Numbered from the stretch's first letter, positions 4,487 through 32,071 are shown. The stretch: 32,071 nt of DNA from Acholeplasmataceae bacterium (GCA_012838945.1 DUOG01000013.1:1-32071); one strand, 5' to 3'. The notes: generated by a model not told the origin, from the letters alone. Numbers and translations are program-made.

Positions 4487-4503
4487 TATTAGAGGTGATA
4501 AAA

Positions 4504-5574: not shown

Positions 5575-5584
5575 AGGTATGAAA

Positions 5585-15689: not shown

Positions 15690-15690
15690 G

Positions 15691-15859: not shown

Positions 15860-15888
15860 TTGAAAAAAAACGCTTTCTATTATATAAT
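15860..15888 (+). promoter_or_regulatory. promoter of the GH20-ABC transport operon
   Basis: TTGAAA (15860-15865) and TATAAT (15883-15888) are separated by exactly 17 bp. It is one of the best sigma-A-type promoters in the window and probably drives the long operon that begins with the GH20 gene. Confidence 0.8.
15867..15878. promoter_or_regulatory. LacI-family/cre-like operator in the promoter spacer
   Basis: AAAACGCTTTCT contains the AANCGNTT core of LacI-family and CcpA cre sites and lies wholly between -35 and -10. Binding here would block RNA polymerase, so repression is expected. Against the 14-base cre consensus there are three outer mismatches. The LacI-type regulator at 1882 is a possible binder, as would be a CcpA elsewhere. 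Confidence 0.55.
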
Positions 15889-15936: not shown

Positions 15937-17787
15937 ATGTATCAAATTATTCCCTATGTAAAAGAGAAAGTATACCTTGATGGTAAAATCAAAATATCAG
16001 AGATCAAAACCTTCTTTTGTGACCCTCTTTTACTAGAAATAGCTCCTGAAGTTCAAAAGATCTTTCCTCAAATTACCCTAATAAATGATTTAGAAAAAGC
16101 AGATATCATCATAAGTTTAGAAGCATTTGCGAAAGAAGAGTACAAGATCGAAATTGATAATAATAAAATTTTGATTAAAGCGGGCTTTCTTAACGGATGC
16201 TTTTATGCATTAATGACCTTAAAGCAAATTATTGCTCAAGTAGATGATGAAGTGTATAACTTAGTTATTCACGACTTTCCATCACTCGCAATTCGGGGCT
16301 TTATGATGGATATCTCACGTAACAAGGTTCCTAAACTCGAAACGCTAAAAGCGTTTGTCGATAAGATGGCGGAACTTAAGTACAACCATTTTGAACTATA
16401 TGTTGAAGGCTTTTCCTTTGAATATCGTAGCTTTAAAAACTATTTAGAAGAAGAAGGATATATTACCGTTGAAGAGTATATTGAACTAGAAAAATATTGT
16501 GCGAGTAAAATGATTGATCTTGTTCCAAATCAAAATGGACTTGGCCATATGACTGATTGGTTACAACATGATGAGTTTAAAGATTTGGCTGAAAGTCCAG
16601 ATGGTTTCTTTATTTGGGGAGCTCATCGAGCACCAAGTACTCTTAATGTCACTGATGAGAGAAGTATCAAACATGTCAAGCGCATGTATGATGATATGTT
16701 ACCTTACAGTAATTCACCTTATTTTAATATGAACTTTGACGAACCGTATGAACTAGGTGAAGGTAAAAGTAAAGAATATTGTGAGAAACACGGAAAAGAA
16801 AAGGCGTTTATTGATTATTTAAATACACTATATCAACATGTAAAGCAATACGAAAAAACTGGTTTGATCTGGGGTGACTTTTTGCTAAAGCATCCTCAAA
16901 CCTTAAAACAACTTCCTGAAGATTTAATCTTCATTGATTGGGGTTATCACAAATCTTATCCGTTTGATGAGCATCTTAAGATGTTAGCCGAACTTAAGAT
17001 TCCTTTTATGGCGGCACCGGGAACAAGTACCTGGTCATCAATTACTGGAAAGATTGATGATATGATGATGACTGTTAAAAACAGTACCACGCACACAAAA
17101 TTAAATCACGGATTAGGAGTCTTAATGACTGACTGGGGCGATATGGGCCATCTTCAATATCTGCCTGTTAGTTATCCAGGTTTAGTTTATGCGGCTAGCG
17201 GTATGTGGGGGGAACTCCCAGCAACCGAAAAAGAAGTAATTGCCTATCTTGATCAGGCAATCTTTCAAGATGAAGCACAGATAATAGGACGTTTATTATT
17301 TGAATTGGGTCGTTATGACCGCTTAGAAGGTATCTATCGTGATTATGGAACTAAAACTTTCTCGGTAATCTTATGGGCCGATTTGACCCAAAATGAATCG
17401 GATCCACTTAATGCCTTTATCGATAAGATGAAATCAAATCTTATTGATGAAAATCACTATACAAAGCTAGTAGAACACTCAGATCATTGGGAACAAGAAT
17501 TAGCGGAAGCCCAACCAAAGTGTGCTGATGCTGAGTTGATTTTAAAGGAAATTAAGTATAGTATTCGCTTACTAAGGTTACTATGGAAAGCCAATCGTGC
17601 CTTTGATCAATCACTTGATCAAGATCGTCGAGAAACCTTCATTGACGAATCAATTAAAGGTTTAGCTGAGCATCGTGACCTTCATTTGGAGGCTTGGGAT
17701 GCTAGAAATAAACATGGAGGATTTGATAAGAGTTATGGCCGTTTAGCCAACCTTATCAAAGTTTTAGAGAAATGGCGTCAACAATAA
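15937..17787 (+). CDS. GH20-type beta-N-acetylhexosaminidase, cytosolic
   Basis: GH20 enzymes release terminal GlcNAc or GalNAc by substrate-assisted catalysis with an Asp-Glu pair. Seen: an N-terminal GH20b-like alpha/beta domain (residues about 1-115) ending 'VIHDFPSLAIRGFMMDISRNKVP', then the barrel with 'KMAELKYNHFELYVEGFSFEY', 'LVPNQNGLGHM', and the catalytic pair in 'FNMNFDEPYELGEGKS' (Asp-Glu about 268-269). A helical C-terminal region (about 470-616) follows. No signal peptide, so it would act on imported oligosaccharides. Start ATG 15937 has GAGGTGAA. It is the first gene after the regulated promoter. Sequence context departs from the classic 'GGDE', so specificity could differ from chitobiose-type GH20 enzymes. 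Confidence 0.82.
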   Translation: MYQIIPYVKEKVYLDGKIKISEIKTFFCDPLLLEIAPEVQKIFPQITLINDLEKADIIISLEAFAKEEYKIEIDNNKILIKAGFLNGCFYALMTLKQIIAQVDDEVYNLVIHDFPSLAIRGFMMDISRNKVPKLETLKAFVDKMAELKYNHFELYVEGFSFEYRSFKNYLEEEGYITVEEYIELEKYCASKMIDLVPNQNGLGHMTDWLQHDEFKDLAESPDGFFIWGAHRAPSTLNVTDERSIKHVKRMYDDMLPYSNSPYFNMNFDEPYELGEGKSKEYCEKHGKEKAFIDYLNTLYQHVKQYEKTGLIWGDFLLKHPQTLKQLPEDLIFIDWGYHKSYPFDEHLKMLAELKIPFMAAPGTSTWSSITGKIDDMMMTVKNSTTHTKLNHGLGVLMTDWGDMGHLQYLPVSYPGLVYAASGMWGELPATEKEVIAYLDQAIFQDEAQIIGRLLFELGRYDRLEGIYRDYGTKTFSVILWADLTQNESDPLNAFIDKMKSNLIDENHYTKLVEHSDHWEQELAEAQPKCADAELILKEIKYSIRLLRLLWKANRAFDQSLDQDRRETFIDESIKGLAEHRDLHLEAWDARNKHGGFDKSYGRLANLIKVLEKWRQQ

Positions 17788-17890
17788 TCGGTTGGCTGCC
17801 AATGCCATTAACATTAAAAGATACATTGATAGCTGGAAAGAAAAGGCCAAGTTGCCAATCTTTTTTAGCCAACTACGAAGAGGTGAAAGT
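17788..17890 (+). promoter_or_regulatory. intercistronic spacer with long-range inverted repeat
   Basis: The 103-base gap between GH20 and the binding-protein gene is the longest inside this operon. GTTGGCT (17791-17797) pairs perfectly with AGCCAAC (17867-17873), just upstream of the GAGGTGA ribosome binding site. It may be a processing or stability element that sets a higher level of the binding protein. The track reads this spacer as coding (start 17792), but it has no ribosome binding site there. Confidence 0.4.
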
Positions 17891-20863
17891 ATGAAAAAAT
17901 TATATTCTGCGATAATTTTGATGGCGATACTTGCGGTTGTAACAAGCTTTTTTCCAAAAGAAGTAAAAGCAACAACTTCATCGTATCGTCAAAATCCATA
18001 TGCATATAAAACATTGTCTAATACTAGCGATGAAATTTTGCCATATGAGGATTATCTTCAAGCTTATACTCAAGCGTTTCCAAACAAAGAAGTTGTTATT
18101 AATGCTTGGGATTTAGCAGGCCACAATGTTACCGTAAATGAAGATGAAGATAATGTTAAATTATCTGATTTAAAAATAGTGGAACACGATGGTCAAAAGG
18201 GTTTATTTACTCCTGAAAGAGGAACTGTTAATTGGTCCTTTGAAGTTGAAGAAGAAGGATATTATCATATTGTTTTAAAATATTATCCAACAACTGAACA
18301 AGGAAAGAGTTCTTCAATCGAACGAAGTCTTCAAATAAAAAATGAAATTCCTTTTGTTGGTGCTGATACATTTGTTTTCTATCGTGTTTGGGGAAATCGT
18401 GACAACGAAATCGCCCGCGACGTTAACGATAATGATATTAAGCCAAAGCAAGTTGAAAAACCAGCTTGGCAAGAAGTATATCTAGTTGATGATATGGGTT
18501 ATATTAGTGATCCTTACTTATTCTATTTTGAAAAAGGAACTAATACCATTAGCTTTCAAGCCATTAAAGAACCTTTAGTAATTGACACTATTAAATTGGT
18601 TCCAAAATTAGATATCATTGATTATAACGAATATAAAACAGTGGTGGCTGGAAAAGAAAATAAAGTTCCAGAAAAAACTCAAATTAGAATCGAAGCAGAA
18701 AATGCAGTATACAAATCTTCTCCAACCCTTTATCCAATAAGTGACCGTGCAAGTATGTTAACCGAACCTTATGATGCATCAAAGATTCGTTTAAATACCA
18801 TTGGCGGTACTAACTGGAAGATCCCTGGTGATAAGATTACTTGGGAATTTGATGTTGACCATGCCGGCTATTACAATATTTCAATGCGTGCCAAACAAAA
18901 TCAAGTGCGCGGAATGTATTCGAGCCGAAAAGTTTATATTGATGGTGAAATCTTATTTGAAGAATTAAATGACACTAACTTCAGATATAACAATAGATGG
19001 CAAAACGTTACTTTAGGTAATGAAGATGGTGCCTTTCTATTCTACTTTGAACCAGGTTCTCACACCATCACAATGGAAGTTACTCTAGGTAAGTATGGGA
19101 CTTTAATTCAACAAACTGAAGCAGTTATTGATGAATTAGGATCACTTTATCGTGACATTATTCGCTTTACTAGTGTTAACCCTGACCCGGGTCGTGACTA
19201 CCAACTTACTAGACAAATCCCTAACCTATTAGAACGTTTTGAAAAAGCAAGTGCAGAGTTAAAGTTTATCTCTAGTGAGATAGCTCGTATCTCTGGTGGT
19301 AAGAGTGATAAGACTGGTGTTATTGACAGTGTAGTTGTTCAATTAGATGACTTAATTAAAAAACACCGTTCAATCCCAACTCGTTTACTCCAATTAAACA
19401 ATAATATTTCTTCTCTAGGTAACTTATTGATTCTATTACGAGAATTACCATTAACTATTGACTATATCTTGATCCATACTCCAGATGTTAAATTGCCACG
19501 CGCTAATGAAAACTTCTTTGAAAGAATATGGAATGGTATTGTTCAATTCTGGAATTCATTCTTCAATGACTATTCAGCAATCTCTAAAACAGTAGGTGCT
19601 GAAGAACGAACTAGTATTGAAGTTTGGATGACAATGGGACGTGACCAAGCCAACGTGCTTCGTCAACTCATTGACGAAAGTTTTACCCCTGATACAAATA
19701 TTGGGGTTGACTTAAAACTCGTAAGTGGTGATGTTCTCTTAAGAGCAACCTTAGCTGGTATTGGACCAGACGTTGCGATTAACGTTGATAGTACCTTACC
19801 GGTAAACTATGCACTACGTAAAGCTGTTTATGATATTAGTCAGTTCCCTGACTATCATGATTTTGTTGGAACTTATCTTCCATATGAAGAAAAGCAGTTC
19901 CATCCTAGTGCTTTAGAACCGTTTACTTTTAATGGTGGTGTTTATGCATTACCGGAAAAACAAACATTCTTAATGATGTATGTTCGTGATGACATTGTTG
20001 CTGATCTAGGACTTAAAGTTCCAAAGACATGGCTAGAAATCATTGAGATTATTCCTGACTTACAAGCTAATCAATTACAGTTCTACCTACCAGTAAACGA
20101 AGCTGGAGCATCAGCATTGAACCCAATCTTTGTTTCTATGCTCTATCAAAATGGTGGAGAACTATATATAAACGATGGTAAAGAAACTGGTTTATTAAGT
20201 AAAGAAGCAATGGACACGTTTGAATTCTGGACTGAATTCTATACCCTCTATTCCTTCCCTAAATCAGCTAACTTTATTAACCGTTTCCGTACTGGTGAAA
20301 TGCCAATGGGTATTGCTTATTATGAAGCATATAACACATTAAGTGTTTTCGCTCCTGAGTTACGTGGTAAATGGTCATTCCACCCAATCCCTGGAACTGA
20401 GAGAGTTGATGAACATGGTAATGTATATATCGATAATACTGCTACTACCATTGGTTCAGGTGTTGTTATGTTAAGACAACCAGCAGAAAAATCTGAACAA
20501 GTACGTAATGATTCATGGGAATTTATGAAGTGGTGGACAAGTACTGAAACTCAAGTTCAATTTGGACGTGAGATGGAAGGTATCTTAGGCCCAGCCGCTC
20601 GTCATAATACCGCAAATAAATTAGCTCTTGAACAATTAGCTTGGCCAGCCAAAGACCAAAGAGCGTTGATTGAACAACAATATAACATTAAATCAATTCC
20701 GCAAGTTGCTGGTAGTTATATTGTTGGACGTGAAGTAGAAAATGCTTTCCGTCGTGTTATCAATGATTTGGCCAATGCACGCGAAACCCTTTATGAATAC
20801 TCGCTTTCAATTAATCGTGAAATTGATCGTAAACGTAAAGAGTTCGACTTACCACTAGCTTAA
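17891..20863 (+). CDS. oversized extracellular solute-binding protein (family 1) with beta-sandwich domains
   Basis: Substrate receptor of a carbohydrate ABC importer, about twice the usual size (990 residues). Seen in order: signal peptide 'MKKLYSAIILMAILAVVTSFFPKEVKA'; two carbohydrate-binding-like beta-sandwich segments, about 60-230 and 260-410 (the second begins 'IRIEAENAVYKSS', typical of CBM6/35-like folds, and both contain 'WEFDV/WSFEV' and 'FYFE' strands); a helical linker about 430-560; and a solute-binding domain about 575-960 with 'WMTMGRDQANVLRQLIDESF', 'GPDVAINV', 'FNGGVYALPEKQTFLMMYVRDDI' and 'GSGVVMLR'. There is no lipobox Cys and no C-terminal membrane segment, so how it stays at the membrane is unclear. 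The track start at 17792 is rejected; ATG 17891 has GAGGTGA. Permeases follow after 18 bases. Confidence 0.85.
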   Translation: MKKLYSAIILMAILAVVTSFFPKEVKATTSSYRQNPYAYKTLSNTSDEILPYEDYLQAYTQAFPNKEVVINAWDLAGHNVTVNEDEDNVKLSDLKIVEHDGQKGLFTPERGTVNWSFEVEEEGYYHIVLKYYPTTEQGKSSSIERSLQIKNEIPFVGADTFVFYRVWGNRDNEIARDVNDNDIKPKQVEKPAWQEVYLVDDMGYISDPYLFYFEKGTNTISFQAIKEPLVIDTIKLVPKLDIIDYNEYKTVVAGKENKVPEKTQIRIEAENAVYKSSPTLYPISDRASMLTEPYDASKIRLNTIGGTNWKIPGDKITWEFDVDHAGYYNISMRAKQNQVRGMYSSRKVYIDGEILFEELNDTNFRYNNRWQNVTLGNEDGAFLFYFEPGSHTITMEVTLGKYGTLIQQTEAVIDELGSLYRDIIRFTSVNPDPGRDYQLTRQIPNLLERFEKASAELKFISSEIARISGGKSDKTGVIDSVVVQLDDLIKKHRSIPTRLLQLNNNISSLGNLLILLRELPLTIDYILIHTPDVKLPRANENFFERIWNGIVQFWNSFFNDYSAISKTVGAEERTSIEVWMTMGRDQANVLRQLIDESFTPDTNIGVDLKLVSGDVLLRATLAGIGPDVAINVDSTLPVNYALRKAVYDISQFPDYHDFVGTYLPYEEKQFHPSALEPFTFNGGVYALPEKQTFLMMYVRDDIVADLGLKVPKTWLEIIEIIPDLQANQLQFYLPVNEAGASALNPIFVSMLYQNGGELYINDGKETGLLSKEAMDTFEFWTEFYTLYSFPKSANFINRFRTGEMPMGIAYYEAYNTLSVFAPELRGKWSFHPIPGTERVDEHGNVYIDNTATTIGSGVVMLRQPAEKSEQVRNDSWEFMKWWTSTETQVQFGREMEGILGPAARHNTANKLALEQLAWPAKDQRALIEQQYNIKSIPQVAGSYIVGREVENAFRRVINDLANARETLYEYSLSINREIDRKRKEFDLPLA

Positions 20864-20881
20864 GGAGGAGTTTGATTCAAA

Positions 20882-22105
20882 ATGCAACGAAATAAAAAGA
20901 AAAAACTAACTAAAGAAGAAAAAATCGCCCTCCGCGCGGCTATAAAAGCCAAGAAAGCTCAGTGGCGAGAAGAAGATAAGTTATTTGATCAAGAAACAAG
21001 AGAACGGCTTGAAGATATTAAAAAAGAGCTTGCTGAAAGCAAACTTGTAAAAGCCGAATTTCTTAAAAAGTTAAAAGAAGATCCAAAAAATCAAGAACTT
21101 AAGGAAGAGTATATTGAGTTCAATAAAAAGCATGAACATATTCTTCAACGTTATCGAATCGAGAAAAACCGTCTTTCACTAGGTTATAAATTAGACCGCT
21201 TTAGTAAAAGAGGTGGAAGACTTCGAAGAGAGTTATATATCAACCGCCAATACTATTATTTAGTGGCACCATATACATTCTTATTCTTAGTCTTCACGGT
21301 TATTCCGGTTATAATGTCACTTATCATTAGTTTTACCTACTTCAACTTGTTGGAATTACCACGCTTTGTTGCTTGGGAAAACTATATGAGATTGTTTATT
21401 GATGACAAGATATTTGTTATCGCAGTTCGAAACACATTAATCTTAGCGGTTATTACTGGACCAATATCATATATTGCTGCCTTCGTCTTTGCCTGGCTAA
21501 TTAATGAATTGCGTCCAAAGTTAAGAGCCTTTATGACTCTTATCTTCTATGCCCCATCAATTTCTGGGAACGTGTATCTAGTTTGGAAGTTAATCTTCTC
21601 TAGTGACATCTATGGGTATGCAAATGCCTTTCTCATAAAATGGGGGTTCATTAATGAACCAATAACCTGGCTGCAGGAGCCTAAGTATATCCTAGCAATC
21701 GTTATTGTTGTTCAATTATGGCTCTCACTTGGGGTAAGCTTCCTGGCCTTCATTGCCGGATTGCAAAATGTTAATAGGGAACTTTATGAAGCGGGTGCCG
21801 TTGACGGTATCAAAAATAGATGGCAAGAACTATGGTATATTACTTTACCACAAATGAAATCACAATTAATGTTCGGGGCCGTTATGCAAATTACATCGAG
21901 TTTATCGATTGCGGAAGTTACGACCAATATTGCTGGGTTCCCGTCAATCGAGTATTCAGCCCATACGATAATCAACCACTTGACGGACTATGGTACGCTG
22001 CGACTTGAGATGGGTTACGCTTCGGCGATTGCGACGATCCTATTCATTGTTATGATTGTGGCTAACGTTCTTGTTCGTAAAATTCTTAGAAGGGTAGGTA
22101 ATTAA
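20882..22105 (+). CDS. carbohydrate ABC transporter permease 1 (MalF/UgpA type)
   Basis: Inner-membrane subunit of a CUT1-type sugar importer. The transmembrane part begins near residue 125 ('YYYLVAPYTFLFLVFTVIPVIMSLIISF') and has six predicted helices. The ATPase-coupling EAA loop is 'ELYEAGAVDGIKNRWQELWYITLPQMK'. Unusual: the first 120 or so residues are a highly charged, helical, probably coiled-coil cytosolic extension ('LTKEEKIALRAAIKAKKAQWREED'). Length 407, against about 300 for typical members. AAGGAGGAG lies 11 bases before ATG 20882. It forms a pair with the next gene. No ATPase gene is in the window; a shared MsmX/UgpC-like ATPase elsewhere is expected. Confidence 0.9.
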   Translation: MQRNKKKKLTKEEKIALRAAIKAKKAQWREEDKLFDQETRERLEDIKKELAESKLVKAEFLKKLKEDPKNQELKEEYIEFNKKHEHILQRYRIEKNRLSLGYKLDRFSKRGGRLRRELYINRQYYYLVAPYTFLFLVFTVIPVIMSLIISFTYFNLLELPRFVAWENYMRLFIDDKIFVIAVRNTLILAVITGPISYIAAFVFAWLINELRPKLRAFMTLIFYAPSISGNVYLVWKLIFSSDIYGYANAFLIKWGFINEPITWLQEPKYILAIVIVVQLWLSLGVSFLAFIAGLQNVNRELYEAGAVDGIKNRWQELWYITLPQMKSQLMFGAVMQITSSLSIAEVTTNIAGFPSIEYSAHTIINHLTDYGTLRLEMGYASAIATILFIVMIVANVLVRKILRRVGN

Positions 22106-22107
22106 TT

Positions 22108-23133
22108 ATGGCAAAAGAAGCTATTAGAGTTGATGATGATCAACTGGCTGGTGCCCCCCTTTCGAAAGAGGAACAGAGGATTATTAAGCGCCAACAGCGC
22201 AAACTAAGAAAGTTTAATATTGTTGATGAAAGCCAATTAAAAGGCTTATCAAAATTTATTTATAATTACAAGAAAAAGCGTCGTATTAAAAGACGTAAAC
22301 GAGTTAGTCGAAGCTTTGCTGGTGACATGGGGCTCTTCTTGGTATTACTTCTCTTTGGAGCCTTTAGTGCTTACCCATTAATTTACTCGATTACTGCTGC
22401 TTTTAAACCGCTTAATGAATTGTTCCTTTATCCTCCGCGACTCTTTCCACAACAATATGTTATGGATAACTTTATTGACCTAGCGAGTTTAATGGAACAA
22501 TCCTGGGTGCCATTCTCTCGATATTTCTTTAACACCATCTTTATTACCTTAACGGGAACAGTTGGACACGTTATTATCGCGTCAATGGCAGCTTATCCAC
22601 TTGCTAAGCATAATTTCTTAGGTAAAAAATTAATATTCTCATTAGTTGTTTACTCGTTGATGTTTGCTCCACAGGTAACAGCAACCCCAAGTTATATTAT
22701 GTTTAGTACTTTAGGGCTAATTGATAGTCAATGGGCAATTATCTTACCAGCCTTTGCCTATACTTTAGGGCTCTACTTGATGAAACAATTTATGGATACG
22801 ATTCCAATGGAACTCATTGAATCGGCCAAGATAGATGGTGCCAGTGAATTTAAGATATATTGGAAGGTTATCATGCCGATTGTTAAACCGGCTTGGTTGA
22901 CCTTAATTATCTTGTTATTCCAACGCTTATGGAATACGGATGGTGGTGTTTACATTTATAGTGAACAATTAAAACCGGTTAGTTATGCGCTACATCAAAT
23001 TATTGCTCAAGGTGTTGCTCGAGCAGGTACAGCTTCGGCGGTACTCTTAATTATGATGGTTGTGCCAATTACCGTCTTCATCCTATCTCAAAGCCAAATT
23101 ATCGAAACGATGGCCCATTCTGGTATGAAGTAG
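22108..23133 (+). CDS. carbohydrate ABC transporter permease 2 (MalG type)
   Basis: Second permease of the first pair. About 70 N-terminal residues are cytosolic and very basic ('YKKKRRIKRRKRVSRS'), then come six predicted helices from 'DMGLFLVLLLFGAFSAYPLIYSITAAFKP', a MalG-type start. EAA loop: 'ELIESAKIDGASEFKIYWKVIMPIVKP'. Length 341 against about 280 for typical members, the excess being the N-terminal extension. It starts two bases after the first permease stops, so both are made in equal amounts. 'AAFKPLNELFLYPP' is the usual region after helix 1 in CUT1 MalG-type proteins. Confidence 0.9.
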   Translation: MAKEAIRVDDDQLAGAPLSKEEQRIIKRQQRKLRKFNIVDESQLKGLSKFIYNYKKKRRIKRRKRVSRSFAGDMGLFLVLLLFGAFSAYPLIYSITAAFKPLNELFLYPPRLFPQQYVMDNFIDLASLMEQSWVPFSRYFFNTIFITLTGTVGHVIIASMAAYPLAKHNFLGKKLIFSLVVYSLMFAPQVTATPSYIMFSTLGLIDSQWAIILPAFAYTLGLYLMKQFMDTIPMELIESAKIDGASEFKIYWKVIMPIVKPAWLTLIILLFQRLWNTDGGVYIYSEQLKPVSYALHQIIAQGVARAGTASAVLLIMMVVPITVFILSQSQIIETMAHSGMK

Positions 23134-23146
23134 GAGGTAACAAAAG

Positions 23147-24931
23147 ATGAAATACAAAAAATATTTAATATTATTGGTTGTATCATTTGCTTTGGTTATC
23201 TTTACTTCAACAACCAAAGTAAGTGCCGCAAGTTATAATTATGACTATTGGCATAACATCGTCTATTCATCAGAAGGTTTATCTCATAAAGACACTTTCT
23301 ATGATCAAGACATTCTTAATCCTAATGGAACAACACCTGTTGATGCTAATGGAAACCAATTGGTGAAGTTCAACACTTTAGAAGATATGGCAGTTTACGG
23401 CGAAAGAATTTATGTTCTCGACGCCAAGACCAGAGACAGTAAAACTTTAACCTTTGGTGGTGACCCTACAAGTGTTGATGGTGCTAGTACCGTTTATGTC
23501 TTAGATAAATCATTTAACTATGTCGGCCAACAATCAGTTTTTGCCATCACAAAAAGTGCTAAAGCGCAGTTAGAACGCTTCTACACTTATTTTGATGAAG
23601 AAAAGGGCGAAACAGTTCGCGTTTATGAAACTGAAAATGCCAAAAATAATTATCAAGATCGCGTCTATATCCCTTATCCTGATGGATTTACGCCTAAAAC
23701 AAAATCGGGATTAGATCTTGCGGAAAATACAGCTGTTATCTTAAGAAATGCAAGAGGTATTACGGTAACTAAAGATGCTTTATATATTGCCGATACCGGC
23801 CATTACCGCATTTTTAAATTAGATAAAGATACTTATACTGTAACTGGTGTATACCTTACACCAAATGATGAAACTTTCAGAAATCCATGGGTGTTCTCAG
23901 AAGCATCTGATGGTAAGCAATTATTCTATCCGATCAAATTAGCGATTGACGTCGCTAACCGGGTTTACTGTGTTGCTGATCGTATTTATGAAGGTATCCT
24001 TGAGTTTAATGACAATGGTGAGTTCAACCGTTTCTTAGGGGTTAATAAGGTTGTACCTAACCCGCTAAAAGCATTCTGGACTAAAATTATGACTGAAACT
24101 CAAATTGCTCAAATTGCTTTGGACTTACCACCGATGTTCACTAATCTTTCGATTGATAAAAAAGGATTCTTATACACAACTTCTAAACCAAGTGATAACA
24201 CTCAAGCAACAAATTTGATCAAAGCAATTAACACTTCTGGTAAAGACGTTTTAAAACGAAATGGTTACACTGAGCCAAGTGGAGATGCTGTTTATATTGG
24301 AGCTTCCACGAACCCTCAAATACCAATCGGACCATCATCATTGAATGCTATTACAGTTAGTGATAATGGTATTTATACGGCTGTTGATACTAAACGAGGT
24401 CGAATGTTTACTTATGATAATGAAGGAAATCTACTCTATATCACTGGTGAAAAAGGTACTTTATCGCATAACCTTAATGAACCAGTAGCTATTAGATATT
24501 TAGGAAATGACATTGTTGTAGTTGACCGCGAATCACGCAGTTTAATTAGATTCCAAGTAACTAAATTTGGTTCTTTGATTAATGAAGCAACTGAACTTTA
24601 TAATCAAGGTCTTGTCATTGAAGCTGAATCAATTTGGCGCGAAGTTCTAAAAATGAATTCTAACTATGAGTTAGCTTATGTTGGAATTGGTAAGAGTCTC
24701 CTTCGTCAAGGAAAATACAAGGAAGCTATGGAAAACTTCAAAATGGGTAATAACAAAACATATTATTCTAAAGCCTTCCAAGGTTATCGAGATGAATTCT
24801 TAGAAGAAAACTTCGGTATTATCATGACTTCATTAGTAGCAATTGTTGTTGCTTATGGTGCTTATAAAGGCTATAAGTACATAAAACGTCGCAACGAAGA
24901 AGATTATGAAGGAGGCGACGAAAATGCTTAA
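23147..24931 (+). CDS. secreted NHL-like beta-propeller with TPR and C-terminal membrane anchor
   Basis: No described enzyme family recognised. Signal peptide 'MKYKKYLILLVVSFALVIFTSTTKVSAAS'; then repeated NHL/propeller-like blades, for example 'EDMAVYGERIYVLDAKTRDS', 'RGITVTKDALYIADTGHYRIFKLDKDT', 'LNEPVAIRYLGNDIVVVDRESRSLIRFQV' (to about residue 475); a tetratricopeptide pair about 484-545 ('EAESIWREVLKMNSNYELAYVGIGKSLLRQGKYKEAMENF'); and one membrane helix near 558-580 followed by a short charged tail. So most of it is outside the cell. Propeller plus TPR suggests binding of glycan and partner proteins; this is inference. Start ATG 23147 behind GGAGG. It overlaps the Yip1 gene by 8 bases. 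It lies between two permease pairs, suggesting a structural part of the uptake machine. Confidence 0.78.
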   Translation: MKYKKYLILLVVSFALVIFTSTTKVSAASYNYDYWHNIVYSSEGLSHKDTFYDQDILNPNGTTPVDANGNQLVKFNTLEDMAVYGERIYVLDAKTRDSKTLTFGGDPTSVDGASTVYVLDKSFNYVGQQSVFAITKSAKAQLERFYTYFDEEKGETVRVYETENAKNNYQDRVYIPYPDGFTPKTKSGLDLAENTAVILRNARGITVTKDALYIADTGHYRIFKLDKDTYTVTGVYLTPNDETFRNPWVFSEASDGKQLFYPIKLAIDVANRVYCVADRIYEGILEFNDNGEFNRFLGVNKVVPNPLKAFWTKIMTETQIAQIALDLPPMFTNLSIDKKGFLYTTSKPSDNTQATNLIKAINTSGKDVLKRNGYTEPSGDAVYIGASTNPQIPIGPSSLNAITVSDNGIYTAVDTKRGRMFTYDNEGNLLYITGEKGTLSHNLNEPVAIRYLGNDIVVVDRESRSLIRFQVTKFGSLINEATELYNQGLVIEAESIWREVLKMNSNYELAYVGIGKSLLRQGKYKEAMENFKMGNNKTYYSKAFQGYRDEFLEENFGIIMTSLVAIVVAYGAYKGYKYIKRRNEEDYEGGDENA

Positions 24932-25559
24932 AAAGATCTATAATGATTGCGTAAAATTTCCTACTTATATCTTGACGCATCCGTTCAAAGGATATAATTT
25001 GTTCAAGGAAGAAAAGCAAGGAAAAATGAGCGTTGCTATCACCTTCTTAGTAATCATTGCGCTCTTAAATATAATTAACTATCGCTATTTAGGATTTATT
25101 ATTAATAATAACAATCCTCGAGCATTTAATAGTTTATTAATCATTGTTTACTCAATTGTTCCTGTTGTTTTATTAAGTGTAGCTAACTGGAGTGTTACCA
25201 CCCTTATGGATGGTAAAGGTAAGATGAAAGAAATCTTTATGATGGTTTGTTATTCTTACTTTCCTGTTATCATTACCGGAATTATTACATTAGTCCTAAG
25301 TCAAGTTGTTATTGAAGATGAAATTCAATTCTTATCATTACTTAATGGTGTTGGTTATTTCTTAATGGCCTATATGATCTTTATGGGATTAATCAGTATT
25401 CATGAGTATGGACTATTCAAGACAATTGCGACTATTGTAGTTACAGGTGTTGCTGCATGTATTATCTTGTTCGTCGGATTATTGATATTTGACTTATCAC
25501 AACAAATTTACGGATTCTTGTTCTCGCTCTATCGCGAGGTCAAAACAAGGTTCTTCTAG
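24924..25559 (+). CDS. Yip1-family membrane protein
   Basis: Integral membrane protein of 211 residues with about five predicted helices. The N-terminal 'FPTYILTHPFKGYNLFKEEKQGKMSVA' and central 'NWSVTTLMDGKGKMKEIFMMVCYSYFPVI' are typical of bacterial YIP1-like proteins. No catalytic motif is seen and the function of bacterial members is unknown. The track starts at ATG 24906, but the ribosome binding site GAAGGAGG (24909-24916) follows that codon, so ATG 24924 is the start. It overlaps the propeller gene by 8 bases, indicating coupled translation. I suspect a membrane scaffold for the neighbouring propeller or permeases (inference). Confidence 0.8.
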   Translation: MLKKIYNDCVKFPTYILTHPFKGYNLFKEEKQGKMSVAITFLVIIALLNIINYRYLGFIINNNNPRAFNSLLIIVYSIVPVVLLSVANWSVTTLMDGKGKMKEIFMMVCYSYFPVIITGIITLVLSQVVIEDEIQFLSLLNGVGYFLMAYMIFMGLISIHEYGLFKTIATIVVTGVAACIILFVGLLIFDLSQQIYGFLFSLYREVKTRFF

Positions 25560-25571
25560 AGGGAGGATAAT

Positions 25572-28349
25572 ATGACATTGAAATGGCCAAAATTTTTGAC
25601 ATTTAAAAGAACTTTACTAATTACATTGTTGTTAATCCTCTTAATTGTTGGGTTAGTCTTTGTATTAGGTGGATATAAACCAGCAAAACCGGTTTTAAGT
25701 GCGAAAGATTTCTCTTTCGAGGGTTTTACTGAGTTTAAGAGTTTTACTGAACAAGACAAACAAGTTCAAACTGTAACAAGTGAAAATGGACGCTTTGTCT
25801 TCAAGTTTGATCCAGTAACAACTTATTTCTCGATTGAAGATAAAGTAACTGGACACACTTGGTATTCTAATCCGACTGAAGAGGATGAGTTTGAAACTAA
25901 CAAAGGGACAGTTGAATCTCAAAAATCAACATTGATTCTTGAATATATTACTCCAGTTGGTGGGACAAATACATTTGCTAATTACACTTACAGTATTTAT
26001 GACTTTAATGAAGAACAAACTGAAGGTGGATATAATTTAGATCTTGCCCCAACTTTCTCAGTAAAATATGAAGGAAATAAGGTTACTGTTTTATACGAAT
26101 TAGTTAAAAAAGGTATCGACTACACTTTCTTCCCTGCTCGAATATCACAGGAACGTTTAGAGCATTTTATTGCTGAAAACAAACGAATGGTAGAAGAAGG
26201 GGTTCCGGGTGTTGTCGAATTAGATAACCGTGACCTTAACCGTTTAAAGATCATTTATTATGAATTAGATGAAAAGACTGAGCCAGATCGACCTTTCTAT
26301 AAGTTAAAGAAGGCTCATGAAAATATGAGTGGATTAGAGATTCAAAACCTCTATCGAATCTTATATGTTAACTGTGGTTATACTCGTGAAGATGCTGCTT
26401 ATGATAATGCGATGTATGGTGTCTCCATTAACATGGACCGTCCACACTTTAGTATCGCAATTGAATATGAAGTTTCAAACGAAGGATTAAAGGTTACTGT
26501 ACCAGCAAAATCAATTATTGAACGTGGTAGCCAAAAAATCGGTAAAGTAAAAATATTACCATACTTCACTACAGCTAAAAGAGGAACTGAAGGATATATG
26601 GTTATTCCTGATGGTTCTGGAGCAGTAATGAATTTTGACAATGACAAATTAGCCTATGGTGGATTTGGTAAACGTGTTTATGGTAGAGATACATCATATT
26701 ATGATGAGATCAAACCAGTTCCAACAGAAGATGTTTTACTACCGATGTATGGCTTAGTTAACAAAACAGCTGATACAGGAGTTGTTGTTACCGCAGATAA
26801 TGGTGCAACAATGTTAAATCTTTATGCGGATATTAGTGGTCGTATTGACTCGTATAACCGTATCAGTTATGAAGCGTTCTTGCGCGAAGCTCAAACCGTT
26901 TGGATTGGACTTGGTGCAGCCGCAAAACCACACGTTAAGTGGACAGAAGAACGCTTATTAAATGACGTAGAATTGAACTATCATTTCTTAGAAGCTAAAG
27001 ATAACAACTATAACGATATGGCTAAGTTCTATCGTCGTTATCTCGGATTAGAAGACAATGATAAGACTACATCTACTGTCTTAAATCTTGAGTTAATTGG
27101 TAGTTATGACTATGATACCAACTTCTTAGGTATTGGTTATACTGCTTATGATTCTCTCACTACTTATAAACAAGCAATGGAAATCATTGAAGAAATGAGA
27201 GGTCACGGAGCAGAATACATTAATGTCCTCTATCGAGGATGGCAAGAAGATGGACTCACCAATCCAAGCATTTCTAAGTTAAGCCTCAGCAAAGTGATTG
27301 GTGGTAAAAAAGGATTGAAGGAATTTGTTGAATACACTAAAAATAATAATATTAACTTCTATCCATATTTAAGTTTCAGTGAATTTACATCTTTTAATGA
27401 ATCATTCGGAAGACAACATTATTCATCAAGAACTGTTGGAAATGACTTCTCATATCGTTATCCATACAATCCATCCTTCGGTATCTTTGACATGAATCTT
27501 GATGAAATAATGGTAGTATCACCAAAATACTACACTACTTTCATGAGCAAATTCATTAAAGAATTCAATAAAAAAGTTGGAATTAATTCCGTAGCATTTG
27601 AATTCTTAGGCTCAAGCCTTGGTGGCGACTATAAGAAACGCCAATTATTCTATAAGGAATCAGCAATGATTGAACAAATTCAATCATTACAAATGGCAAA
27701 AGAAAACGGGATCGATAATATTAATCTATTTACTCCATATCAATACGCCCTTCCTTATGTATCAAATGCTTTAGAAGTTCCTTATACATCAACCTCTTAT
27801 GAAATCTTAGACTACTCAATTCCATTCTATCAATTAGTGGTTTCTGGAAGCTTTGACTATAGTGGTATGAGTTACAATGCTAATGACGAAAAAGGTATGA
27901 TGTATCACCTAATGAGAATGTTGGAAACAGGATCAAATGTTCAATTCACTTTCTCATATGAGGATTCAGCAAAACTTATTCAAACTAAATATAACAATTA
28001 TTATTACACCCAATATTCTAAATGGTTAAGTGAAGTTGATTTCTTAGTTAATAGCCTTAATGAATTGAAAATCCATGAAGGTGTATTGGTTCAACATGAG
28101 CAATTAGCTAATGACATCTTTAGAGTAAAATACAGCAATGGTATTGAATTCATCCTTAACTATACCGAACGGGTACTTAATAATAATTTAAGTTCATATG
28201 GCGTTGTTCGTGGAAACCTTATTGAGCGAATCGATTTAGGTTTAGGATTAGAAAAAGAAGTCTATGAACGAGCTGAAATTATCAACAATATCGTTGATGG
28301 TAATATTAAAAATCAAATTATTATTTATAGAAGTGGAGGCGCGAGATAA
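25572..28349 (+). CDS. membrane-anchored DUF5696-type protein, possible TIM-barrel glycosidase
   Basis: A 925-residue protein with one N-terminal membrane helix ('TFKRTLLITLLLILLIVGLVFVLGG') and the rest outside. Residues about 60-470 look beta-rich ('NGRFVFKFDPVTTYFSIEDKVTGHTWYSNP', 'GYMVIPDGSGAVMNF' near 343). Residues about 500-800 look like an alpha/beta barrel ('GAEYINVLYRGWQEDGLTNP', 'NNINFYPYLSF', 'INSVAFEFLGSSLGGDY', 'GIDNINLFTPYQYAL'); a small beta domain ends it. The PDGSGA motif and size match proteins I recall as DUF5696, found beside sugar ABC transporters in Paenibacillus-like bacteria. Beta-sandwich, barrel, beta-domain order is like several glycoside hydrolase clans, so an unassigned glycosidase is possible. 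ATG 25572 has GGGAGG. Its stop overlaps the next ATG (TAATG). Confidence 0.65.
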   Translation: MTLKWPKFLTFKRTLLITLLLILLIVGLVFVLGGYKPAKPVLSAKDFSFEGFTEFKSFTEQDKQVQTVTSENGRFVFKFDPVTTYFSIEDKVTGHTWYSNPTEEDEFETNKGTVESQKSTLILEYITPVGGTNTFANYTYSIYDFNEEQTEGGYNLDLAPTFSVKYEGNKVTVLYELVKKGIDYTFFPARISQERLEHFIAENKRMVEEGVPGVVELDNRDLNRLKIIYYELDEKTEPDRPFYKLKKAHENMSGLEIQNLYRILYVNCGYTREDAAYDNAMYGVSINMDRPHFSIAIEYEVSNEGLKVTVPAKSIIERGSQKIGKVKILPYFTTAKRGTEGYMVIPDGSGAVMNFDNDKLAYGGFGKRVYGRDTSYYDEIKPVPTEDVLLPMYGLVNKTADTGVVVTADNGATMLNLYADISGRIDSYNRISYEAFLREAQTVWIGLGAAAKPHVKWTEERLLNDVELNYHFLEAKDNNYNDMAKFYRRYLGLEDNDKTTSTVLNLELIGSYDYDTNFLGIGYTAYDSLTTYKQAMEIIEEMRGHGAEYINVLYRGWQEDGLTNPSISKLSLSKVIGGKKGLKEFVEYTKNNNINFYPYLSFSEFTSFNESFGRQHYSSRTVGNDFSYRYPYNPSFGIFDMNLDEIMVVSPKYYTTFMSKFIKEFNKKVGINSVAFEFLGSSLGGDYKKRQLFYKESAMIEQIQSLQMAKENGIDNINLFTPYQYALPYVSNALEVPYTSTSYEILDYSIPFYQLVVSGSFDYSGMSYNANDEKGMMYHLMRMLETGSNVQFTFSYEDSAKLIQTKYNNYYYTQYSKWLSEVDFLVNSLNELKIHEGVLVQHEQLANDIFRVKYSNGIEFILNYTERVLNNNLSSYGVVRGNLIERIDLGLGLEKEVYERAEIINNIVDGNIKNQIIIYRSGGAR

Positions 28350-29509
28350 TGGATAACAATAATGTTCCTGAAAAAGTTTCTTTTTCCGAGAAACTAAAAA
28401 ATGCTTTATTGAGTCTTCTTTCAACAATCTTACTCGCGCTTAAGAAATTCTTTACGCTTCCCTTCTTTGTTAAGGTTGGAAAAGTAATTGCATGGCCGTT
28501 TGTTAAGGTATGGCCTTATATCAAATGGTTCTTACATAAAATTAGTTTTCCATTTAGATGGTTGAAAAAGAAAACTTATAATAATCTTTCCCATCAAGGG
28601 AAAAAGGTTGTTTGGTCATTTATCTTCTTATCACCAGTAATTATCGGATTCTTATTGTTCTTTATTTATCCGTTAATTATGTCAGCCATTTACTCAATTA
28701 GTCAATTTAGACCATTGCCTGAGGGTGGCTTTGACATCGTCATCGGTGAGTTTATTAAAGAAAATGGTGATGGAACAACTACGGTTATTAAAGATTTATT
28801 CTATAACTTTAAGGTTGCTTTACAAGAAAATAGACACTTCCCCGTTGAACTAGTAAACACTATTAAGAACACCGTAATTGATGTATTCGTTATCACAATC
28901 TTTAGTTTGTTGGTTGCGGTTATGTTAAATGGTGAGTTTAAAGGTCGGGGAATTGTGCGCGCTATTTTCTTCCTTCCTGTTATCTTTAACTCGGAAGCCA
29001 TTACTCAAGCATTGTCAAAATATCAGCATGTTGATGCTCTTCTCAACCAAATGGGAAGTGGGGCCTTGACTGCAGTATTTAACCTAGAGATGTTCTTGAT
29101 TAATGCCGGGATTCCGAATACGTTGATAACGTTCTTGACAAGTATTACAACAGCAATCTATCGTACGATATCATATTCGGGTATTCAAATCTTGATTTTC
29201 CTTGCTGCTATCCAATCAGTTCCGGGCCATCTTTACGAGGCAGCAACTATTGAGGGAGCAACTCAATATGAGTCATTCTGGAAGATTACCCTTCCGATGG
29301 TTTCCCCAATGATCATGACTGTTGTCGTGTTTACAGTGGTCGACAGCTTCATGCGTTCACCAATTAATACTGTTATCAATACGACCTTCAACCAGTCAAA
29401 CTATGGTCTGAATGCAGCCATGAACTGGATCTACATGGGGGCAACCATTATATTACTAGTAATCTTTATTGGCCTATTGTCAAAGGTGGTGTTCTATTAT
29501 GACGAATAA
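28349..29509 (+). CDS. carbohydrate ABC transporter permease 3 (MalF/UgpA type)
   Basis: First permease of the second pair, 386 residues. A roughly 85-residue N-terminal region has aromatic amphipathic stretches ('FFVKVGKVIAWPFVKVWPYIKWFLHKISFPFRWLKKK') that could lie along the membrane surface. The core starts 'VVWSFIFLSPVIIGFLLFFIYPLIMSAIYSISQF', typical of MalF-like CUT1 permeases. EAA loop: 'HLYEAATIEGATQYESFWKITLPMVSP'. A periplasmic-side insertion around 'IKENGDGTTTVIKDLFYNF' follows helix 1. It shares one base with the upstream stop codon (TAATG) and overlaps the next permease by 11 bases. It differs clearly from permease 1, so it is not a recent duplicate. Confidence 0.9.
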   Translation: MDNNNVPEKVSFSEKLKNALLSLLSTILLALKKFFTLPFFVKVGKVIAWPFVKVWPYIKWFLHKISFPFRWLKKKTYNNLSHQGKKVVWSFIFLSPVIIGFLLFFIYPLIMSAIYSISQFRPLPEGGFDIVIGEFIKENGDGTTTVIKDLFYNFKVALQENRHFPVELVNTIKNTVIDVFVITIFSLLVAVMLNGEFKGRGIVRAIFFLPVIFNSEAITQALSKYQHVDALLNQMGSGALTAVFNLEMFLINAGIPNTLITFLTSITTAIYRTISYSGIQILIFLAAIQSVPGHLYEAATIEGATQYESFWKITLPMVSPMIMTVVVFTVVDSFMRSPINTVINTTFNQSNYGLNAAMNWIYMGATIILLVIFIGLLSKVVFYYDE

Positions 29510-30584
29510 GACGGAAAAGAAATTGGCAAGAAAAGAACGGATAGAAGAACTAAAAGCTCAGGCCATCGAAACTTATGAAAAAATCAGAGCGGATTTAAAA
29601 AATCCGGTTCGAAAGGCAGTTCGAGCTCGTAAGGTCTCACTTGCTTCTTCGAGATTGATTCGTTTTGTAGTTATCTTTGGTTTATCGTTCGTTATTATAT
29701 TCCCACTATTCCAACAATTAACTTTAGCTCTTAGACATCCTAATGATATCAATGATCCACTGATTGTTTGGATTCCTGAAACATTCTCGTTCTTGAACTT
29801 TAAGATTGCGGGGACAATGTTAAACTATTGGAGGGCTTTGTGGAATAACATTAAAGTTTCATCCATAGTTATGGTGCTTCAAATTGCATCAACTGCTTTA
29901 GCAGGATATGCTTTCTCTAAGTTAAGATTTAAGGGTAGTGAAGTCCTCTTTTGGATCGTTATGATTACATTAATCGTTCCTCCACAAACCTTAGCGATAC
30001 CGAAATTAGTATTCTTTAATAACTTTGACATCTTTGGTATTATCAAGCTAATTAAAGGAAGTGGCCTAAAATTAACCGGTGTTGGTAAAACATCTTCCTT
30101 CTACATTATGGCCGCAACCGGTCAAGGTATCAGAGCAGCACTATTCATTTATCTATTCAAACAATTCTTCCGGGGCTTACCGGTTGAACTTGATGAATCA
30201 GCTCAAATCGACGGTGCTGGCGTATTTAGAACATTCTGGAGTGTAATGCTTCCAAATGCTCGTGGGGTTATGATTACTGTTGGGCTTTTTGCCTTTGTGT
30301 GGCAGTGGAATGACGTTTACTTTACGCGCCTCTTTGAGGTCAGTGATACGGCTTATCCACTACTGACAGCGCAATTATCCCAAATCACTGAACGTTTACC
30401 GCACTATTTGAAGACCTATGGAATGGATTCCTTAGTATCAGAAGACTTGCGGGGGAATGATTACTTCGTTTCACTCATATCTCATACAGCAGCGTTCTTG
30501 ATGATGTTACCGCTCTTAATCGGATATCTATTTGTTCAAAGACACTTTGTTGAAGGTATTGAACGAACAGGTATTGTTGGTTAA
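29499..30584 (+). CDS. carbohydrate ABC transporter permease 4 (MalG type)
   Basis: Second permease of the second pair, 361 residues from ATG 29499. The track's start at 29469 (TTG) lies deep in the previous gene and is rejected; AGGTGG lies upstream of 29499. The first 55 or so residues are charged and helical ('TNKTEKKLARKERIEELKAQAIETYEKIRADL'). Six predicted helices follow from 'LIRFVVIFGLSFVIIFPLFQQLTLALRHP'. EAA loop: 'ELDESAQIDGAGVFRTFWSVMLPNARG'. It overlaps permease 3 by 11 bases, a translational coupling that fits a 1:1 heterodimer. No ATPase or second binding protein follows in the window. Confidence 0.9.
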   Translation: MTNKTEKKLARKERIEELKAQAIETYEKIRADLKNPVRKAVRARKVSLASSRLIRFVVIFGLSFVIIFPLFQQLTLALRHPNDINDPLIVWIPETFSFLNFKIAGTMLNYWRALWNNIKVSSIVMVLQIASTALAGYAFSKLRFKGSEVLFWIVMITLIVPPQTLAIPKLVFFNNFDIFGIIKLIKGSGLKLTGVGKTSSFYIMAATGQGIRAALFIYLFKQFFRGLPVELDESAQIDGAGVFRTFWSVMLPNARGVMITVGLFAFVWQWNDVYFTRLFEVSDTAYPLLTAQLSQITERLPHYLKTYGMDSLVSEDLRGNDYFVSLISHTAAFLMMLPLLIGYLFVQRHFVEGIERTGIVG

Positions 30585-30660
30585 AAAATTATTATAATAT
30601 AAGTAGAGGAAAATCCATTATTCAGATAAAATAATGGTAGTGTGAAAGGTAAGTGTTGAT
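30585..30660 (+). promoter_or_regulatory. spacer with -10 candidate and hairpin before yesL-like gene
   Basis: TATAAT (30593-30598) could be a -10 but has no good -35. CCATTATT (30615-30622) and AATAATGG (30630-30637) form a perfect 8-bp hairpin. No T run follows, so it is not a standard terminator. It may be a leader hairpin or an mRNA processing site that partly separates the YesL and NAGPA genes from the permeases. Confidence 0.4.
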
Positions 30661-31281
30661 ATGGATTCACGAAAACTAACAAACAGCAAAGTTTATCAAG
30701 TGTTTGACTTTATAATGCGTTTAATTCTGTTGAATCTATTAGCACTTACCTTTTCTTTTCCGATTATTACCTTTCTTACAAGTTTAGTCGCAACTCATGA
30801 TGTAATTAAGCAATACATCAATGATGGAAGCACCGTTGTTTTCCGCCCATTTTGGGAGTCGTTTAAAAGAAACTTCTTTAAGACAGTAATTTTACAAATA
30901 GGTATTATTGTTGCAGGTTTTCTGTTGGGTAACAGTTTATTGTTCTTTTACAATCATACCGTTGATGGCGGAATATATGCATTTGGGTTTTATTTAACAA
31001 TGTTAATTATATTGGTGCTTTTCATCATCTTAGTCAATTATCCTTTGACTTGTGTATACTTTAAGGGTTTAAAAGCAACACACTATCTCAAACTTTCAGC
31101 ATTATTTGCTTTTAAAGATTTGTCAATTAGTTTAATTGATGCTATAATATATGTAGGCTTTGCTTTATTAGGCTTTATTGCCTTTCCTGTATTAATCTTT
31201 GGGGGAATAAGTGTTCCGGTTTATTTGATTGTAAAGATAAGTCGGAAGCACTATTACCATATATCAAAAAATTATGAATAA
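30661..31281 (+). CDS. YesL/DUF624-family membrane protein
   Basis: A 206-residue membrane protein with about five hydrophobic segments. The N-terminus 'VYQVFDFIMRLILLNLLALTFSFPIITFLTSLVATHDVIKQYI' followed by 'FRPFWESFKRNFFKTVILQIG' is the DUF624/YesL pattern. Members commonly sit next to CUT1 sugar permeases in Bacillota; their function is not established, and a role in assembly or regulation of the transporter has been suggested only from context. Start ATG 30661 has AAAGGT ten bases upstream, a weak site. The gene is followed after 21 bases by the secreted phosphodiester glycosidase. Confidence 0.85.
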   Translation: MDSRKLTNSKVYQVFDFIMRLILLNLLALTFSFPIITFLTSLVATHDVIKQYINDGSTVVFRPFWESFKRNFFKTVILQIGIIVAGFLLGNSLLFFYNHTVDGGIYAFGFYLTMLIILVLFIILVNYPLTCVYFKGLKATHYLKLSALFAFKDLSISLIDAIIYVGFALLGFIAFPVLIFGGISVPVYLIVKISRKHYYHISKNYE

Positions 31282-31302
31282 TTAAGGAGGAGAAGAGTAA
31301 AA

Positions 31303-32071
31303 ATGAATTTTAAAAAGTTCTTTGGCTTTTTATTATGTTTGCTAGCAGTGGTTCTTTTTGGTGCTACACAAGTGAAAGCGGTTGCACCAAGTTCCCAAAT
31401 AGTAGAAAATGTTTCTACCCAAGTGTTGAACTTACCTGAAGGTGTTGAATTCCATATTCGTAAGGATAAAACAGCTCAAAATGGTGACATTACAGCAGCA
31501 AAACGTGATCAAAACGTTCAAGCAATCGTTGTTCCAAAAGCAGCAGAAACTGTTGAACTAGTTGTTTGGGCCGCTGGTGACGATCACAAGTGGGGCCGCG
31601 CCACTTTACGTTCATCAATTGTTGACTTTGAAAGAAGAAACCCAGGCTATCGCGTTATCGCTGGGGTAAATGGTGACTTCTTTGATATTAGTGATACTTT
31701 CCAACCTAGTAGTGCCCACGTAAGTGCTGGTGACGTTTGGAAAAAAGATAACCGTCCATATAAAACGTTGGGTATTTTCCCAGACAAATCTTACATCATT
31801 GGTCAAATGACAACTAATAACTACTTGAGTCTTAAGACTGTTGAAGGACGAATCGTTACTTCAGAATTCAAAATTGACGTTGAAAACAAATTACCTACAG
31901 GTAATGAAGTTGCATTATTCTTCCCAGGTTCTGCTCAAAAACTAAATGTAGCTGGATATAACGTTTATAAAGGAAACTATGATATTTATCGTGTTTCTAA
32001 AGACATGGGTTATGTAACCCCTAAACCTTTAGGAAAATTCCTTAAAGGTGAGATTGTTGAAAAATCATCTA
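31303..32071 (+). CDS. secreted phosphodiester glycosidase (NAGPA-domain) protein, partial
   Basis: Missing from the ORF track because it has no stop within the window; about 256 codons are visible and the gene runs off the end. It starts at ATG 31303 with AAGGAGGAG 10 bases upstream. Signal peptide 'MNFKKFFGFLLCLLAVVLFGATQVKA'. The segment 'RNPGYRVIAGVNGDFFDI' is the hallmark of the phosphodiester glycosidase domain (PF09992), named after human NAGPA, which cleaves GlcNAc-1-phosphodiesters. 'AHVSAGDVWKK' and 'TLGIFPDKSYIIG' fit the following strands. Bacterial members occur in exopolysaccharide and cell-wall contexts. Here it could remove GlcNAc linked by a phosphodiester from teichoic-acid-like or wall-linked glycans (inference). 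Further domains or an anchor may lie beyond the edge. Confidence 0.85.
   Translation, partial: MNFKKFFGFLLCLLAVVLFGATQVKAVAPSSQIVENVSTQVLNLPEGVEFHIRKDKTAQNGDITAAKRDQNVQAIVVPKAAETVELVVWAAGDDHKWGRATLRSSIVDFERRNPGYRVIAGVNGDFFDISDTFQPSSAHVSAGDVWKKDNRPYKTLGIFPDKSYIIGQMTTNNYLSLKTVEGRIVTSEFKIDVENKLPTGNEVALFFPGSAQKLNVAGYNVYKGNYDIYRVSKDMGYVTPKPLGKFLKGEIVEKSS

Follow-up and report, generated by a model that had tools for sequence, protein, structure and literature searches.

A conserved eight-gene module, probably an importer with two permease pairs, and its probable peptidoglycan cargo in an Acholeplasmataceae bacterium

The gene run and its conserved core

The window analyzed here, meaning the whole stretch of 32,071 bases from an Acholeplasmataceae bacterium (GCA_012838945.1 DUOG01000013.1:1-32071), makes up the whole of contig C51 in a draft genome of 1.69 Mb. 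From position 15937 to the contig end it holds eleven open reading frames (ORFs), all on the + strand and with families backed by Pfam, in which genes of a maltose-type (CUT1) importer stand among genes for membrane and extracytoplasmic proteins. An initial annotation of this DNA had proposed that they form one glycan-uptake machine, and the genes it named are all present in the one direction that it gave. The features of the run and of its upstream boundary are as follows.

15689..15733, +: terminator-like hairpin with T tract, bounding the unit (-22.9 kcal/mol, z -6.6)
15860..15888, +: promoter-like TTGAAA-17-TATAAT upstream of GH20 (11/12 matches, consensus match only)
15937..17787, +: GH20 beta-N-acetylhexosaminidase, cargo (PF00728/PF02838; without signal peptide)
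17891..20863, +: giant solute-binding protein (SBP; PF13416; ORF 17792-20863, likely start 17891)
20882..22105, +: permease A1, MalF-type (PF00528; EAA loop EAGAVDGIKNRWQELWYITLP)
22108..23133, +: permease A2, MalG-type (PF00528; EAA loop ESAKIDGASEFKIYWKVIMP)
23147..24931, +: NHL beta-propeller plus TPR protein, extracytoplasmic (PF01436, weak TPR; C-terminal transmembrane helix 551-569)
24924..25559, +: Yip1-domain membrane protein (PF04893; five helices)
25572..28349, +: DUF5696 protein (PF18952, 474 bits)
28349..29509, +: permease B1, MalF-type (PF00528 at 25.3 bits, cut-off 26.4; EAA loop EAATIEGATQYESFWKITLP)
29499..30584, +: permease B2, MalG-type (PF00528; EAA loop ESAQIDGAGVFRTFWSVMLP)
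30661..31281, +: YesL/DUF624 membrane protein, accessory (PF04854)
31303..32071, +: phosphodiester glycosidase (NAGPA), 5' part (PF09992 in the joined protein; gene cut by the contig end)

The hairpin and the promoter-like site appear to mark the start of the unit just before GH20. As the initial annotation had noted, the run has no strong terminator: no terminator-like site lies between its genes, the + strand hits at 19837, 28587, and 28735 are all intragenic, and the total of 12 sites differs little from the mean of 10.2 in shuffled sequence. The gene overlaps that it reported (8, 1, and 11 bases) are obtained with the ATG at 24924 as the start of Yip1 and the ATG at 29499 as that of permease B2. 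The truncated NAGPA gene is completed by contig C136, the first 38 bases of which are the last 38 of the window, giving a joined protein of 634 amino acids.

Comparison of DUF5696 loci revealed a block of eight genes in constant order: SBP–permease A1–A2–propeller/TPR–Yip1–DUF5696–permease B1–B2. All distinct DUF5696 loci with sufficient flanking sequence (at least 8 kb on the upstream side and 2.4 kb on the downstream side) had the full block in this order, 61/61, from Acholeplasmatales-type Bacilli to Clostridia. Automatic gene calling gave complete blocks in 59 of these, and the other two were complete once all ORFs were scored; the apparent breaks in order (at L084 and L169) were rejected as artefacts of a greedy gene caller that hid ORFs. 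Such conservation is far beyond chance, and the counts, in which related genomes are treated as separate, describe linkage, not independent events. Conservation of the neighbours together in other genomes was the test that the initial annotation had set for its proposal, and every locus passed it.

The block is also widespread. DUF5696 homologues were present in 27 of 30 relatives, and in the loci of 20 relatives the block could be followed, within the reach of the stretches, to identities as low as about 30%. A scan of named genomes added Izemoplasmatales, Peloplasma, and Clostridia, and a phylum-wide search gave 39 further regions with the same block. Seen from the other end, 36 of the 40 giant-SBP genes in the 30 relatives have DUF5696 5.2–9.0 kb downstream on the same strand; of the remaining genes, one belongs to a full module (G006:C11) and contig ends cut off the other three. 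The propeller and Yip1 are separate ORFs in 30 loci and a single ORF in 29, and four loci with short-type modules (L188, L190, L194, L206) encode B1 and B2 as a single fused protein of ~620–640 amino acids.

Some matches were set aside. Two DUF5696-like matches without a module (G001:C12, G009:C10) were weak and partial and were judged to be different proteins. Phylum-wide matches under the Pfam cut-off were short barrel segments, and those of ~600 amino acids just above it were GH129-type enzymes. DUF5696-like proteins without a module (L209, L210) share their gene surroundings across two genomes that belong to genus g2. In Peloplasma aerotolerans M4Ah (L086:2935-14263) the eight-gene module has a GH130 phosphorylase gene upstream, and this strain is a possible bench organism.

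The most fitting reading of the eight genes is a single module that encodes a CUT1-type importer with additional subunits and two permease pairs. YesL, NAGPA, and GH20 are cargo outside the obligate core, because in loci outside this order the cargo is different while all eight core genes are kept; YesL adjoins the module in family f1 and is displaced or absent elsewhere, and GH20 lies upstream of the SBP gene in f1 and f2 relatives. The conserved uptake machine proposed in the initial annotation thus stood as a module of the eight core genes, without these three. DUF5696 was not found mentioned in open-access papers (subscription papers were outside the reach of the search), and a literature search on Yip1 with ABC importers found no description of the module.

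Subunits of the predicted importer

The SBP has ~990 amino acids, arranged as a signal/anchor helix, two beta-sandwich domains, a helical linker, and a C-terminal MalE-like binding domain; its AlphaFold model has a pLDDT of 84, and the Foldseek matches are MalE-type sugar-binding proteins. A lipobox-like motif is absent in 58 of 63 SBP homologues, unlike in the usual Gram-positive SBPs, and many of them look N-terminally anchored. EAA loops were found in all four permeases of the window, and both pairs therefore look able to couple to an ATPase. The genome encodes one OB_MalK protein, a MalK-type ATPase that would be common to both pairs. There are two permease pairs per SBP in all 61 loci: the two cores may work together on a single captured chain, or one of the pairs may take a different fragment. 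The variety of membrane anchors described in the initial annotation was borne out, with a signal peptide and C-terminal helix in the propeller protein, a single N-terminal helix in DUF5696, and five helices in Yip1.

DUF5696 consists of an N-terminal membrane anchor, a beta-sandwich, and a TIM barrel of the GH129/GH101 fold. A PDB sequence search gave only a weak match of 66 residues and fold comparison was needed: with the AlphaFold model (mean pLDDT 71), the best Foldseek match was GH129 (E 1e-27), followed by GH101. In hhalign the barrels of DUF5696 and of seven GH129-type proteins, one of which was checked and matches NagBb at 4e-147, aligned with 98.6% probability. The catalytic residues of NagBb, which we take to be Asp435 (YLDVF) and Glu478 (SSEE), fall at positions that are not conserved as acids across 38 DUF5696 proteins, being Glu and Phe in the window protein and Lys, Thr, Ser, or Tyr in relatives. 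The strongest conservation lies elsewhere, in IPDGSG and PFYQLVxSG. Because it has this fold without conserved catalytic acids, DUF5696 is read as a binding or docking part, and is probably a non-catalytic, glycan-binding subunit or one that docks.

These features bear on two other explanations. In one, DUF5696 works as a glycosidase, representing a new family related to GH129, and trims glycan at the membrane. The clear fold and the hhalign result are what such an enzyme would show, but with neither catalytic position conserved as an acid and with conservation concentrated in other motifs, we think this quite unlikely. The other explanation is that the operon holds two independent CUT1 importers, the SBP with A1/A2 and a distant binding protein with B1/B2, with propeller, Yip1, and DUF5696 as passengers. 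Complete EAA loops mean that either pair could stand alone, and a second, smaller SBP gene occurs near some modules. Against this, the order is unbroken in 61 loci over great distances, DUF5696 always stands between the permease pairs, no SBP adjoins B1/B2 in this window, and the propeller–Yip1 and B1–B2 fusions argue for joint function; we consider two separate importers unlikely. One physical complex of the eight proteins is putative, proposed from order conservation and the fusions. The gene overlaps, from which the initial annotation had derived fixed stoichiometry, show neither that nor a complex.

Probable peptidoglycan cargo and the source of the wall

The functional neighbourhood of the module reaches upstream to about 4477, through the following cargo genes.

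4477..7275, +: PF00144 hydrolase (possibly AmiE-like), double GNAT, PIG-L deacetylase
7229..8182, +: LD-carboxypeptidase, S66/LdcA (PF02016/PF17676; conserved)
8197..9486, +: LysA-type decarboxylase (PF02784/PF00278)
11243..12136, +: M19 dipeptidase (PF01244; conserved)
12114..14426, +: secreted GHL10 glycoside hydrolase (PF02638; helices 4-22 and 748-766; C-terminal membrane anchor)
14430..15689, +: GHL10 glycoside hydrolase (PF02638; without signal peptide; conserved upstream of GH20)

Relatives of both families have much of this series ahead of the module, and most relatives examined have the first trio, PF00144 hydrolase/double GNAT/PIG-L, there. LysA is conserved beside the module in wall-less relatives, in one of which M19 is fused to it. 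Identification of the PF00144 gene as AmiE was not settled, its only PDB match under 1e-20 being an esterase. Downstream of the module, relatives have genes for GH3, NagB, NamZ, MupG, a BadF-type kinase, AnmK, MurQ, EtfB, EtfA, and an FAD-linked D-lactate dehydrogenase-type protein; in genomes G002 and G026 upstream series, module, and downstream series are one continuous run. MurQ together with NagZ/NamZ, by which a recycling locus is recognized, was found on contig C35 in the present genome, and in G002 and G026 it adjoins the module within the one run. Contig C35 also carries a GH3-MupG fusion, the GH3 part of which is closest to N-acetylglucosaminidases, YbbD/NagZ among them. MurQ scored above the equivalog cut-off in 25 of the 30 genomes, the present one included, and NamZ was likewise found in 25 of 30. 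At L127:103-3501 a D-lactate dehydrogenase-type FAD protein occurs with EtfAB near MurQ; it resembles an electron-bifurcating lactate dehydrogenase and is likely the route for muramic-acid-derived lactate.

From these genes, the cargo of the module in this order is most likely peptidoglycan catabolism, which refines the large amino-sugar glycan of the initial annotation; the tie to such a glycan stood for this lineage. Alternatively, the module could import chitin, mucin, or some other host glycan, the peptidoglycan genes being neighbours by chance. GH20, NAGPA, GHL10, and the double GNAT are not specific to peptidoglycan, and one relative (G015) has the module, GH20, and a NagB hit, with no NamZ and no MurQ above the cut-off. 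However, LdcA, LysA, M19, NamZ, MupG, AnmK, and MurQ act on the sugars or stem peptides of peptidoglycan, and in G002 and G026 a single run holds both them and the module; we judge this alternative very unlikely. As a separate alternative, the locus could serve to recycle the wall of the growing cell itself. With genes for MraY and two penicillin-binding protein (PBP) transpeptidases, the present genome is read as walled, and MurQ, NagZ, and AmiE are used in Gram-positive recycling (PMC5061867). Known recycling, though, imports through the phosphotransferase system (PTS) protein MurP (PMC5061867, PMC6262408) and not through a large ABC machine, and eight relatives without MraY and PF00905 keep the module, NamZ, and MurQ (G006, G016, G017, G021, G022, G024, G025, and G026; G006, with 6% contamination, is a weaker wall-less case). 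Own-wall recycling in place of feeding on foreign walls is, on balance, rather unlikely, and as the sole role of the module it was rejected, as wall-negative relatives keep the module.

Because module, NamZ, and MurQ are retained where wall synthesis is not, foreign peptidoglycan would be a food: the module-bearing wall-less relatives probably feed on the walls of other bacteria, and walled members may do both, feeding and recycling. The Acholeplasmatales are independently reported to mix walled and peptidoglycan-deficient lineages (PMC10868615). Within genus g9, G029 has MraY and PBPs and G017 has neither, which suggests loss of the wall within a genus.

A tree of DUF5696, made by a quick method and with some long branches, has one supported group of 37 rows that holds the window and the peptidoglycan-type loci. 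In 33 of the 37, GH20, GHL10, NamZ, MurQ, or NagB occurs in the locus or adjoining stretch, and in the other four the sequence breaks off at the end of a contig or stretch. Another, separate group, of 26 rows, has none of NamZ, MurQ, GH20, GHL10, or NagB. Three GHL10-linked loci lie outside the 37-row group (L158, L159, L170). Cargo elsewhere includes GH43/RicinB and GH30 (Clostridia), GH16/CBM6, a PF10091 protein, and GH130 (Peloplasma). The tree groups and the differing cargo therefore indicate a general importer of large glycans, one branch of which is dedicated to peptidoglycan.

Signal peptides are absent from GHL10b, GH20, M19, LdcA, PF00144, NamZ, and GH3/MupG. Because most depolymerizing enzymes of the locus lack them, digestion is probably mainly inside the cell. 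With this, and with the absence of conserved catalytic acids in DUF5696, the trimming is not supported in the form that the initial annotation gave it.

Other features of the window were noted. Between LysA and M19 (9591-11108) lie a small lipoprotein, a LytTR regulator, and a four-helix membrane protein; the latter two resemble a two-gene regulatory pair, and the trio was not recognized in the upstream stretches of relatives. A T-box leader is present at 2893-3066, upstream of tyrS (Rfam RF00230, 96.7 bits), and for this reason the listed tyrS start at 3038 is too early and the real start is probably an ATG at about 3146. Palindrome and shared-word scans upstream of units for operator sites of the LacI gene at 1882 returned AT-rich words only. 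A Cys just before a membrane helix with a basic tail was seen at three C-termini: SSCQFG..RKRG, GGCGGS..KRKH, and GGCKGG..RKRH, located at 14300-14426 (the end of the secreted GHL10), at the end of the joined NAGPA on C136, and at L113:3215-6289. Such signals recur on several surface proteins of these genomes and resemble a MYXO-CTERM-like sorting signal.

Proposed mechanism and relation to known systems

Overall, we consider it likely that the module is an eight-part importer of large glycans with peptidoglycan as its cargo in this lineage. From sequence and models we infer a surface complex, import of large fragments, their substrate, and the flux. In this mechanism a GHL10 enzyme at the cell surface would generate peptidoglycan fragments, and there the large SBP, with its extra beta-sandwich domains, would catch the glycan. 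SBP and glycan would be kept near the membrane by DUF5696, which probably binds the chain and does not cut it, and by the anchored propeller/TPR-Yip1 unit. The two MalFG-type permease pairs would import the glycan, powered by the common MalK-type ATPase encoded elsewhere. Inside, GHL10, GH20, NamZ, GH3/NagZ-type, and MupG enzymes would cleave the fragments; stem peptides would yield amino acids through the amidase-like enzyme, LdcA, M19, and LysA; and muramic acid would be converted by AnmK/MurQ to N-acetylglucosamine-6-phosphate and D-lactate, to be used by NagB and by the lactate dehydrogenase/EtfAB.

Several points weigh against this reading. The locus has no linked ATPase, the single MalK-type one being encoded elsewhere. 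Nor is the module specific to peptidoglycan, its cargo differing by locus outside this order, and GH20 and NAGPA by themselves would fit chitin or host glycans too. The half of the pathway from NamZ to the dehydrogenase lies on the separate contig C35 in the present genome. DUF5696 could have an unusual catalytic mechanism. Wall-lessness was deduced from absent genes in draft genomes that are 93–98% complete, and the assignment of digestion to the inside or outside of the cell rests on simple hydropathy.

We hypothesize, tentatively and as something that may well prove wrong, that this is a new class of polymer importer, in which two translocation cores joined by a catalytically dead glycosidase-fold protein and the propeller/TPR-Yip1 unit thread long glycans into the cell to be digested there, and by which wall-less bacteria live on the peptidoglycan of others. 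The proposed importer would give one testable job to several families of no known role (DUF5696, propeller/TPR anchors, and bacterial Yip1 encoded beside transporters), and it raises the mechanistic question of why one binding protein needs two permease pairs. For Bacilli of the gut and rumen, among them relatives that lack wall-synthesis genes, the locus would represent a full pathway of named steps for the use of peptidoglycan as food. Anaeroplasma bactoclasticum digests bacteria, and the locus is a candidate genetic basis for this ability in such mollicutes.

Among known systems, the GH129/GH101 enzymes (NagBb, ZgGH129, EngBF) share the beta-sandwich and TIM barrel of DUF5696, which differs in its non-conserved catalytic Asp/Glu positions, its N-terminal membrane anchor, and its being locked to an importer. 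CUT1 importers of the MalEFGK2 type share the MalE-fold SBP, the MalF/MalG-type permeases with EAA loops, and a MalK-type ATPase in the genome; unlike them, the module has two permease pairs per SBP, an SBP of twice the usual size and usually without a lipobox, and obligate propeller/TPR-Yip1 and DUF5696 partners. The initial annotation's likening of the locus to a Gram-positive analogue, in spirit, of a polysaccharide utilization locus (PUL) is fair, as a conserved module is tied here to an amino-sugar glycan. Capture, import, and enzymes are clustered with a nearby LacI-type regulator gene as in Bacteroidetes and Gram-positive PULs; the differences are that import would be across a single membrane by an ABC-type module and that no SusC/SusD family occurs among the window proteins.

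The recycling clusters of Bacillus subtilis (murQ-murR-murP-amiE-nagZ-ybbC/namZ) and Staphylococcus aureus (mupG-murQ-murP-murR) have in common with this system NamZ, NagZ-type GH3, MupG, MurQ, and the AmiE-like hydrolase family. MupG is used in known Gram-positive recycling with the PTS importer MurP (PMC6262408), the place of which in the cluster is here occupied by the ABC module; no PTS gene was seen in the annotated stretches, the whole genome not having been searched for MurP. This system differs further in having LdcA, LysA, M19, GHL10, GH20, AnmK, and D-lactate dehydrogenase/EtfAB, and in that the set is kept in genomes without wall-synthesis genes.

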